Assembly: GCF_000763375.1 (NCBI RefSeq)
Contig: NZ_JPSY01000001.1
Span: 1,612,001 to 1,676,000 of the forward strand
Reading direction: 5' to 3'
DNA length: 64,000 bases
Source: Microbacterium profundi
Lineage (GTDB): Bacteria; Actinomycetota; Actinomycetes; Actinomycetales; Microbacteriaceae
How positions within the stretch are numbered: the first letter of the stretch is position 1; every line of letters starts with the position of its first letter. The notes below the pieces were generated by a model, which was given only the letters and a program-made list of their open reading frames with translations, was not told where the DNA came from and did not search any database. The position numbers and the translations under genes were made by a program. Below, one piece after another: positions 23,411 to 25,692 of the stretch.

Positions 23411-23427
23411 CTCTGCCCACGGCAGAA
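23411..23427. promoter_or_regulatory. Palindrome CTCTGCC-CAC-GGCAGAA upstream of the clpP pair
   Basis: A 7-3-7 dyad, 54 bp before the first ClpP start. It matches the palindrome upstream of the ClgR-like gene (25676-25692) in 14 of 17 positions; the common form is TCTGCY-CAN-RGCAGAA. A shared operator for the ClgR-like protein is the simplest reading. Confidence 0.6.
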
Positions 23428-23481
23428 CCGCCGTGAGCGGATTCCCGCGCCGGCTGCGCTCCCACCGCGCAGGCTGAACTC

Positions 23482-24126
23482 ATGAGCGAAGAGACCCCCA
23501 TCCCGCAGTTCGGCCCAGAGGCCAGACGCGCACTGTTCCACGACCGCATCCTGGTGCTCGACGGCGCCCTCGACGACGACAACGGCACGCTGCTGATGAC
23601 GCAGCTGCTCACGCTCTCCGCTGAGGATCCGGCCGCCGACATCGCCCTGTGGATCCACTCGCCCGGTGGCTCTGTGCCGTCGATGCTGGCGATCCGCGAC
23701 ATCATGCGCCTCATCCCGAACGATGTCGCCACCCTCGCACTCGGGACAGCGGCCAGCGCGGGGCAGTTCCTGCTCTCCGCCGGCACGAAGGGCAAGCGAC
23801 GAGCGCTGCCGCACGCCCGCATCCTCATGCATCAGGGGTCGGCGGGCATCGGCGGCTCGGCCGTCGAGATCGAGGTGCAGGCCGATGACCTGCGGCAGAT
23901 GCGCGATACCGTGCTCGGGCTCATCTCCGATGACACCGGTCAGCCGGCCGAGCGCATCTTCGAGGACTCGCTGCACGACCGCTGGTACACGGCCGCACAG
24001 GCCGAGGAGTACGGGTTCATCGACGCGATCGTCAGTTCGGTTGCAGAGGTCATGCCGCGCCGTCGCGCGCGGGTCGGATTGGGGACGGATGCTGCGGCAT
24101 CCGCCACGGAAGGAGCGAAGTCATGA
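23482..24126 (+). CDS. clpP: ClpP-family serine protease subunit, catalytic residues intact
   Basis: A 214-residue ClpP subunit. The tetradecameric ClpP degrades proteins fed by Clp ATPases. The nucleophile Ser92 lies in TAASAGQFLL, the histidine is His117 in ILMHQG, and the acidic residue lies in the FEDSLHDRW segment. The oxyanion-strand motif SPGGSV is present. It overlaps the next clpP-like gene by 4 bp, so both subunits are made together and could mix in one barrel. No clpX or clpC gene is adjacent. Confidence 0.92.
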   Translation: MSEETPIPQFGPEARRALFHDRILVLDGALDDDNGTLLMTQLLTLSAEDPAADIALWIHSPGGSVPSMLAIRDIMRLIPNDVATLALGTAASAGQFLLSAGTKGKRRALPHARILMHQGSAGIGGSAVEIEVQADDLRQMRDTVLGLISDDTGQPAERIFEDSLHDRWYTAAQAEEYGFIDAIVSSVAEVMPRRRARVGLGTDAAASATEGAKS

Positions 24127-24713
24127 GCAGCTACACGATTCCGAACGTCATCGCGCAGCATCCGCGGGGTGAGCGCGTCATGGACGTCTACTCGCACCTG
24201 CTCGCGGAGCGCGTGATCTACCTCGGCACCGGAATCGACGCCGGGGTCGCGAACGCCCTGATCGCGCAGCTGCTGCATCTCGACGCGGACAGTCCGGAGA
24301 CCGGCATCCAGTTCTACATCAACAGCGAGGGCGGCGACCCCGGTGCGGCGCTCGCGATCTACGACACGATGCAGCACATCCGCCCCGCCATCGCGACGAC
24401 GGTCGTCGGCCAGGCGATCGGCCCTGCCGCCCTCCTCTCGGCAGCCGGCGCGCCGGAGCAGCGCGCCGCGCTCGAGCATGCGCGCATCGTGCTGCACCAG
24501 CCCGCAGGCCAGTCCCGCGGGGCGATCCCCGACCTCATCCTCGCTGCCGACGAGGTGGTGCGGGTGCGTGCCGACATGGAGGCCGTGCTCGCCAGGCACA
24601 CCGGTCGCACCGTCGAGGCGCTGCGCGTCGATACCGATCGGGACCGGGTGTTCACAGCATCCGCTGCGCTCGACTACGGGCTGATCGACACCGTGCTGGG
24701 GGAGCGGGGGTAG
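24123..24713 (+). CDS. ClpP-like subunit lacking the catalytic serine
   Basis: A 196-residue ClpP homologue with a normal fold pattern: INSEGGDPG, IYDTMQHI, and His125 in IVLHQPAG. Where E. coli ClpP has GQAASMGA, this protein reads GQAIGPAA, so the nucleophile position is Gly100 (codon GGC at 24420-24422). It should therefore be proteolytically inactive by itself and would act as a structural or regulatory ring subunit, like ClpR proteins of cyanobacteria and plastids. It is coupled to the active clpP by a 4-bp overlap. Confidence 0.88.
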   Translation: MSSYTIPNVIAQHPRGERVMDVYSHLLAERVIYLGTGIDAGVANALIAQLLHLDADSPETGIQFYINSEGGDPGAALAIYDTMQHIRPAIATTVVGQAIGPAALLSAAGAPEQRAALEHARIVLHQPAGQSRGAIPDLILAADEVVRVRADMEAVLARHTGRTVEALRVDTDRDRVFTASAALDYGLIDTVLGERG

Positions 24714-24720
24714 GGCGCCG

Positions 24721-25191
24721 TCACCCACGACGCGGGGCACCACGCCGCGACCTGAGACTCGCGATGAGCAGAAGAGTGGTCGGAATCAACAGCAGCAGGA
24801 AGCCGCTCGGGCCGACGATCCAGATGCAGACGAGCGCCCAGATGCCGAGCGTGAGCGCGATGTACAGCGGCACGGTGTCGCCGCGTCGGCCGGCCCGAAG
24901 GATGAGGAGCGCGAGCAGTACGCCGGGAACGACGAAGCCGCCCGGAAGTCCCCAGAACTGCACCGCCGCATCCGTCGGCAGCTGGGTGGTTCGGAACGGT
25001 CCGGCCATCCAGGGGCCCCACCACGGGTGCAGGGCGAACACCACGGTATGCAACGCCGAGATCGTCAGCAGGGAGATCGCGCCCGCGACCGTGAGCCGGT
25101 CGGGACGCACGGATGCGCCGTCACGACGCGGCTCGGCGGAGCGGTCGTCTGAGGCAGAGTCGGGGAATGCGGCCGTGTCCGGATGTGTCAT
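24721..25191 (-). CDS. Small membrane protein (four helices), unknown function
   Basis: A 156-residue protein: a polar N-terminal 32 residues, then four hydrophobic segments. The pattern FWGLPGGFVVPGVLLALLILRAGRRGD recalls a widespread small DUF6463-like membrane family, but that is a weak recognition. It lies downstream of the ClgR-like gene on the same strand (82-bp gap) and ends 7 bp from the convergent clpP-like gene. Confidence 0.75.
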   Translation of the reverse strand: MTHPDTAAFPDSASDDRSAEPRRDGASVRPDRLTVAGAISLLTISALHTVVFALHPWWGPWMAGPFRTTQLPTDAAVQFWGLPGGFVVPGVLLALLILRAGRRGDTVPLYIALTLGIWALVCIWIVGPSGFLLLLIPTTLLLIASLRSRRGAPRRG

Positions 25192-25273
25192 GCCTCAATC
25201 GTGAAGCGGCCCCTGGTCGCGGCCATCCCTCCGCGGGGCGAACCGCCTCACCCGAGCGGGTGAGATGCGCGAC

Positions 25274-25636
25274 TCAGGCGGCGAGAGCGAGCGCGCCGCG
25301 AGCGCCGACTGACACGGCAGCGGATGCCGGTACCGAGGCCATACGCAGTTCATCGGCCACGCTGCTGGCGAGTTCGATGAGCGTCGTGTCGAGGGCCCCG
25401 GCGACCGCGGCGATCATCTCGCTGGACGGCTCCTTCAGCCCGCGCTCGATCTCGGAGAGGTACTGCGGTGAGACACCGGCTTTGTCGGCTGTCTCGGTGA
25501 GGGTCTCTTCACGCTCATGCCGCCGGCGCCGGAGCTGATCTCCGAGCAGATGCCGCCAGAGCGGCTCCGGCCCGTTCTGCGGGCGCGGGCTGCGAGAGGG
25601 GTGGGGCGTGCGGGGGAACGGGACGATCTCGGCCAT
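25274..25636 (-). CDS. ClgR/PopR-like XRE-family regulator with LAA C-terminus
   Basis: A 120-residue HTH_XRE protein. Residues 31-90 form the HTH, with SPQYLSEIERGLKEPSSEMI closely resembling the signature of actinobacterial ClgR and PopR, which activate clp genes. The last residues are ALALAA, like the end of the ssrA tag; in Streptomyces, PopR is degraded by ClpP through C-terminal alanines. It lies about 560 bp from the clpP pair, convergent, and has its own copy of the palindrome found before clpP. The assignment as clp regulator is inference from motif, tail and context. Confidence 0.85.
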   Translation of the reverse strand: MAEIVPFPRTPHPSRSPRPQNGPEPLWRHLLGDQLRRRRHEREETLTETADKAGVSPQYLSEIERGLKEPSSEMIAAVAGALDTTLIELASSVADELRMASVPASAAVSVGARGALALAA

Positions 25637-25675
25637 GGTTCACGGTAACCCTGACGTTCGTCGGTGTCACCGCTG

Positions 25676-25692
25676 TTCTGCTCAGAGCAGAA
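25676..25692. promoter_or_regulatory. Palindrome TTCTGCTC-A-GAGCAGAA upstream of the ClgR-like gene
   Basis: A perfect 17-bp palindrome (8-1-8), 39 bp before the ATG of the ClgR-like gene. It shares the TCTGCY...RGCAGAA arms with the site before clpP, suggesting autoregulation plus control of clpP by the same protein. Confidence 0.6.

Follow-up and report, generated by a model that had tools for sequence, protein, structure and literature searches.

Does a single regulator control both its own gene and a nearby pair of clpP genes? This question is raised by a 64,000-nucleotide stretch of the Microbacterium profundi genome (contig NZ_JPSY01000001.1, positions 1,612,001 to 1,676,000; hereafter the window, in whose coordinates the features are given), in which two similar palindromes precede, respectively, the genes clpP3-clpP4 and a convergent gene close to them that encodes a small XRE/ClgR-like regulator. 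The palindrome before clpP3 reads CTCTGCC-CAC-GGCAGAA, with 6 of 7 arm positions paired, and the one before the regulator gene TTCTGCT-CAG-AGCAGAA, with 7 of 7 paired. As judged by sequence comparison, both are very probably operators of PopR, which is known from Streptomyces. The best explanation of the locus as a whole, which we consider likely, is that PopR binds to identically placed sites before clpP3-clpP4 and before its own gene and activates both, and that this activation is gated by degradation of PopR.

A recheck of the sequence upheld the coordinates given for both palindromes in an earlier note on this DNA as well as their distances to the start codons (54 bp on the clpP side and 39 bp on the popR side), but the two agree in 13 and not in 14 of 17 positions. 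Palindromes as such are little informative here because perfect 7-3-7 palindromes are not rare in the window (17, against a mean of 11.2 in 20 Markov shuffles). The genome scan which the note had proposed was performed with TCTGCYNANRGCAGA and gave exactly two matches in the 3,369,357-base genome, both at the sites in question. With two mismatches to the 17-mer allowed, 16 matches were obtained on both strands of this genome, which is not above the 24 matches of a reversed control pattern, and the signal therefore resides in near-exact sites. What exceeds chance is the shared sequence of the two sites and not their palindromy. That they are chance palindromes or transcription-termination hairpins would agree with the frequency of 7-3-7 palindromes in GC-rich DNA and with an Lrp-family gene that ends 16 bp ahead of the popR box, but neither a T-run nor a called terminator was found at either site, and the likeness of the two sites, their rarity in the genome, and the fixed spacing and conservation described below contradict this explanation, to which we give hardly any credence.

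Although the earlier note could not match the motif to a described box, the palindrome on the clpP side fits the PopR operator quoted in a review of Streptomyces proteases (PMC9775585). According to PMC9775585, PopR of Streptomyces activates the clpP3 operon by binding to TCTGCC-3N-GGCGAATCTGCC-3N-GGCAGA, a result attributed to Viala 2000. The regulator and its box are already known, and a palindrome that had been unexplained becomes a member of a studied regulon. In the window, a second, degenerate box (AACCGCC-GTG-AGCGGAT) abuts the palindrome before clpP3 at a 15-bp offset and lies 39 bp before the ATG, and in the genus alignment, too, the clpP start is preceded by a conserved pair of boxes with the 15-bp spacing of Streptomyces. 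The pairing of the popR box with the clpP palindrome made in the note is incomplete, as it used the distal box; the positional partner of the popR box is the overlooked proximal one, since both are 39 bp before a start codon.

Public genome contigs were scanned for the described tandem, which yielded at least 119 stretches, and 80 of these, from Streptomyces, Micromonospora and one record labelled 'Actinobacteria bacterium', were analysed as loci that match the pattern by construction. A clpP3 homologue was located within 400 bp downstream of the tandem in 79 of the 80. A PopR homologue was present in 66 and was not found in the other 14 (the loci span at most 8 kb); in 63 of the 66 it was on the opposite strand, the three others belonging to Micromonospora. 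When a position weight matrix (PWM) built solely from these 80 tandems was applied to 82 Microbacteriaceae loci, over 200 bp of sequence preceding clpP3 in each, its best match was 40-42 bp from the ATG in 77 of them, and in 75 it scored above all 100 shuffles (the shuffle controls of this test, and of the class, placement and -10 tests below, were all mononucleotide). In the window, the same matrix placed its best match over both clpP3 boxes, on the same 30 bp.

The proposal that one regulator serves its own gene and the clpP pair gained comparative support when relatives were examined, as the note had suggested, since both boxes keep their position along with the gene pair in the genus, family and class samples. 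At an E-value limit of 1e-18, 78 of 149 genus genomes carried a PopR homologue, and the exact pattern occurred 65 times in 50 of the 149. Thirty-nine of these matches were located within 150 bp upstream of popR, one each in 39 of the 78 popR-carrying genomes (that of the window included), as compared with an expected number of 0.0005 calculated from the frequency of matches elsewhere with a genome size of 3.5 Mb, and five matches upstream of linked clpP3 genes coincided with distal boxes. The remaining 21 were found elsewhere, 11 in the 78 genomes with popR and 10 in the 71 without, and the former are not enriched in exact boxes at such other sites. Twenty of these 21 loci were examined, the remaining one belonging to a 44% complete genome, and none of the 20 encodes a relative of popR, clpP3, clpP4 or the 156-amino-acid gene that is present between popR and clpP4 in the window; ten of the matches lay inside a long open reading frame by a crude filter. 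Exact matching leaves two promoters and no clear third target, although weaker targets may exist.

Two pairs among these 20 loci share DNA (L377/L387, and L383/L390 at ∼75%), whereas the others do not. L377 (genome G178) and L387 (G270) have in common a 3-kb stretch that is 99.6% identical, contains an exact box-like site outside the popR and clpP3 loci, and is possibly a mobile element. In two further genomes (G118, locus L224, and G021, locus L212) an exact box is located upstream of clpP3 with no PopR homologue within the 10 kb examined, and a distant or diverged regulator would therefore have to act there.

Beyond the genus, ClpP3 homologues were detected in 21 of the 150 genomes of the family sample, with E values of at most 1e-60, and in 67 of the 393 of the class sample, with E values of at most 1e-58, and a sample of 40 loci from 11 families was drawn from the 58 class genomes with ClpP3 outside the Microbacteriaceae. 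The best clpP3 tandem scored above all 30 shuffles in 35 of these 40 loci; popR was identified close to clpP3 in 33, invariably on the opposite strand as in the window, and the popR box was above the shuffle threshold in 29 of them. The boxes also kept their placement: the distance from the end of the best box to an in-frame start was 39-42 bp at popR in 75 of 78 genus loci, 15 of 18 other-family loci and 26 of 33 class loci, and at clpP3 in 69 of 72, 17 of 19 and 35 of 40, as opposed to 0.5-4% of shuffled upstream regions (this comparison was restricted to loci with a match and at least 260 bp of upstream sequence and accepted any in-frame start up to 150 bp away, in loci and shuffles alike, and only the class rows are independent of the conservation and placement PWMs, which were trained on genus, family and Streptomyces boxes). 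The distribution of popR-clpP3P4 is patchy, and PopR proteins of Microbacteriaceae intermingle with those of other families in the regulator tree, which together suggest loss and horizontal transfer.

As to the regulator itself, the window protein is, by sequence, a ClgR-paralogous XRE protein outside the ClgR clade. In a tree of 89 rows and 127 columns, which is unrooted, has no outgroup and was drawn with a midpoint root, all 30 ClgR rows fell on one side of a branch with 100/96 support and the window protein on the other. The 47 non-Streptomyces PopR proteins were set apart by a 100/95 branch, and the 12 sampled from Streptomyces stood apart from them, between ClgR and the other PopR, with a weak support of their own (76/53). 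We filed the window protein as PopR by its box, tandem, gene layout and C-terminus, all of which match, and not by descent from the node of Streptomyces PopR. Two C-terminal alanines, by which ClpP1P2 is likely to recognise its substrates according to PMC9775585, with mutated ClgR and Lon as the cases named, terminate 88 of 93 PopR proteins, including that of the window. The closest solved structures are ClgR 3f51 (E 6.8e-15) and 5woq. Against the ClgR model NF041677 the window protein reached 63.9 bits, below the cut-off of 170, which is a weak test in view of the best score found with this model in 28 genomes. In that six-frame search of 28 actinobacterial genomes with NCBIfam NF041677, no protein reached 170 bits, a cut-off that seems narrow for ClgR in general, and the best obtained 136.

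The host genome carries a second clpP pair on another contig and, elsewhere, a better match to ClgR (C1:88536-88778), and the window therefore carries an extra set. Binding of this paralogue to both sites, as well as or instead of PopR, might be envisaged, given that ClgR and PopR have the helix-turn-helix (HTH) fold in common and that the inner bases of their boxes are alike, the ClgR box being reported as GTTCGC-5N-GCG (PMC9775585) and as WNNWMGCYNNNRGCGWWS (PMC2905415). The outer arm bases differ, however, and neither palindrome fits GTTCGC-5N-GCG by eye. Moreover, genomes with any exact match are commoner among those with popR (40 of 78) than among those without (10 of 71; Fisher p 1.8e-6, relatedness ignored), whereas some ClgR/XRE-like match to the regulator occurs in 149 of 150 family genomes. 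Such binding is improbable in our judgement, and PopR is retained as the probable regulator of both sites. The host ClgR-like protein ends in PELSLH, without Ala-Ala, whereas a Streptomyces ClgR (L442) ends in VVAA; control of ClgR through C-terminal degradation may have been lost in this host while PopR retains its Ala-Ala. Two ideas on the regulator were discarded: a Gly (ClgR) to Gln (PopR) change in the recognition helix does not account for TGC versus CGC in the boxes, as Streptomyces PopR has Pro and the same box, and a match to the anti-phage family capH (46.8 bits) was taken to reflect the common HTH fold.

In most loci, a -10-like hexamer started 28-29 bp after the box core at both promoters, and at popR the best hexamer was 29 bp after it in 67 of 75 genus loci. 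A hexamer whose second base is A and whose sixth is T was present at the fixed offset in 65 of 65 popR loci, versus 89 of 1300 shuffles (7%), and in 80 of 84 clpP3 loci, versus 64 of 1680 (4%). Inspection of the window by eye placed GTGACA 17 bp before the TACCGT of popR and revealed only CAGGCT and no visible -35 at clpP3; a promoter scanner called no promoter. As the conserved -10-like element is located just before the ATG and no ribosome-binding site is present at normal spacing, leaderless mRNAs are suggested, and those of clpP3 and popR possibly belong to this type. The end of the proximal box would then be some 6 bp short of the -35 position, a usual place for an activator that touches sigma.

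With this arrangement, two PopR dimers would bind side by side on the clpP3 tandem with their centres 15 bp apart, the inner dimer being just upstream of the -35 position, and transcription of clpP3 would depend on PopR because the promoter has a poor -10 and no visible -35. The popR box is placed as the proximal clpP3 box is, which argues for activation at both promoters, and the one high-quality box at popR would serve positive autoregulation. Small XRE regulators often repress their own genes, and PopR might accordingly use the same operators to activate clpP3-clpP4 and to repress popR in a negative feedback, for which the popR box, being the most perfect, would be as expected of a sensitive self-limiting site. 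Yet this box is as far from the start codon (39-42 bp) and from the -10 element (28-29 bp) as the proximal clpP3 box, and it ends about 6 bp upstream of the presumed -35 and not over it. We regard self-repression as rather unlikely, and activation of popR by its own product as reasonably probable.

In Streptomyces, PopR activates clpP3P4 and is degraded by ClpP1P2 (PMC9765437, PMC12607617, PMC9775585), and clpP3P4 is therefore viewed as a backup. Under the proposed model, PopR would be destroyed through its C-terminal Ala-Ala as long as ClpP1P2 works, keeping both genes low; upon failure of ClpP1P2, PopR would accumulate, raise its own synthesis and turn on the backup ClpP3P4. This predicts a small regulon with a self-amplifying loop. 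Whether such a proteolysis-gated positive-feedback latch, with identically placed boxes and a possibly leaderless popR promoter, runs ClpP3P4 throughout the Actinomycetes is a proposal that we give an even chance. If it were true, loss of ClpP1P2 would flip the cell to the backup protease in a switch-like manner. Acyldepsipeptide (ADEP) antibiotics have ClpP1 as their target, and S. lividans mutants that resist them and carry a broken clpP1 express ClpP3P4 (PMC12607617), so that the sharpness of the PopR switch bears on drugs that target ClpP.

Several observations weigh against PopR control of both promoters from equivalent sites. In the window, the proximal clpP3 box pairs at only 5 of 7 arm positions, and with the Streptomyces matrix the tandem reaches only -2.4 bits. 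No exact box is present at popR in 39 of the 78 genus genomes, although the best match is still in place in 75 of the 78, and the class sample includes 4 popR boxes (of 33) and 5 clpP3 tandems (of 40) that scored no higher than the shuffles. With midpoint rooting, Streptomyces PopR falls on the ClgR side of the branch leading to the other PopR. Finally, the Streptomyces popR box, deduced from an alignment of 61 of the 63 convergent rows in which the best candidate of each row was used, at least one of them being wrongly picked, has an imperfect consensus near TTCCACCCAGGGCGGAA 33 bp before a strongly conserved TAGGCT, and is hence about 4 bp further from the -10 element; autoregulation is less clear in Streptomyces for these reasons.

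The locus resembles the PopR-clpP3 clpP4 regulon of S. lividans, which is attributed to Viala 2000 and 2002, in the box sequence, the tandem with a 15-bp offset before clpP3, the convergent popR near clpP3-clpP4 and the XRE/ClgR-like regulator with a C-terminal Ala-Ala, but differs from it by a degenerate proximal box, a perfect box before popR, an extra gene between popR and clpP4, and a ClpP4 without the catalytic Ser. With the ClgR regulons of Streptomyces, Corynebacterium and Mycobacterium it has in common a paralogous activator of clp genes and a short palindromic box, which is, however, TCTGCC-3N-GGCAGA and not GTTCGC-5N-GCG, and the window protein is placed outside the ClgR clade. For M. 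tuberculosis, a putative site at clgR itself was reported with one mismatch allowed (PMC2905415). In the open-licence literature (text and not figures, the original PopR papers being outside this scope), we found no description of a PopR box at popR, nor, in the text, of the identical box placement at both promoters and its spread to other families, which is no proof that the popR box is unpublished. By sequence, the PopR regulon would reach beyond Streptomyces into further families of actinobacteria. Controller proteins of restriction-modification systems are likewise small XRE activators that boost their own synthesis from palindromes near the -35 element. The window regulator, in contrast, is linked to protease genes and not to restriction-modification genes, and we know of no gating of such controller proteins by ClpP degradation.

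Table 1. Boxes, candidate promoter elements and genes of the popR-clpP3P4 locus (window coordinates)
Feature	Position	Strand	Basis
Distal PopR box, clpP3-clpP4 promoter	23411..23427	+	Fits TCTGCC-3N-GGCAGA; one of only two genome matches
Proximal degenerate PopR box	23426..23442	+	15-bp offset from distal box; 39 bp before ATG
Candidate -10 of clpP3, CAGGCT	23470..23475	+	Conserved block before ATG in genus alignment
clpP3, 214 amino acids, catalytic Ser present	23482..24126	+	PF00574, 179.7 bits
clpP4, 196 amino acids, Gly at catalytic-Ser column	24123..24713	+	PF00574, 199.2 bits
popR, 120-amino-acid XRE/ClgR-like regulator ending ALALAA	25274..25636	-	HTH_3, 43.8 bits
Candidate -10 of popR, TACCGT	25642..25647	-	Sequence; fixed offset from box
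PopR box of popR, perfect 7-3-7 palindrome	25676..25692	-	39 bp before ATG

The two protease subunits of the window differ at the catalytic-Ser column. Catalytic residues, read crudely from single tblastn pieces, included the Ser of ClpP3 in 93 of 93 readable family loci, 77 of 78 Streptomyces/Micromonospora loci and 40 of 40 class loci. At the corresponding column of ClpP4, the 93 readable of 97 family loci had Gly in 76, Ala in 13 and Ser in 4, while Ser was present in 67 of 70 Streptomyces/Micromonospora matches, three being unreadable, and in 9 of 40 class loci. Many lineages seem to have a ClpP4 that is a partner subunit without catalytic activity. The 156-amino-acid gene between popR and clpP4 (24721-25191, minus strand) gave a weak match to DUF6463, below the cut-off, and, as only one of the 97 related loci (L133) has a homologue detectable by tblastn, it looks like a recent insertion.

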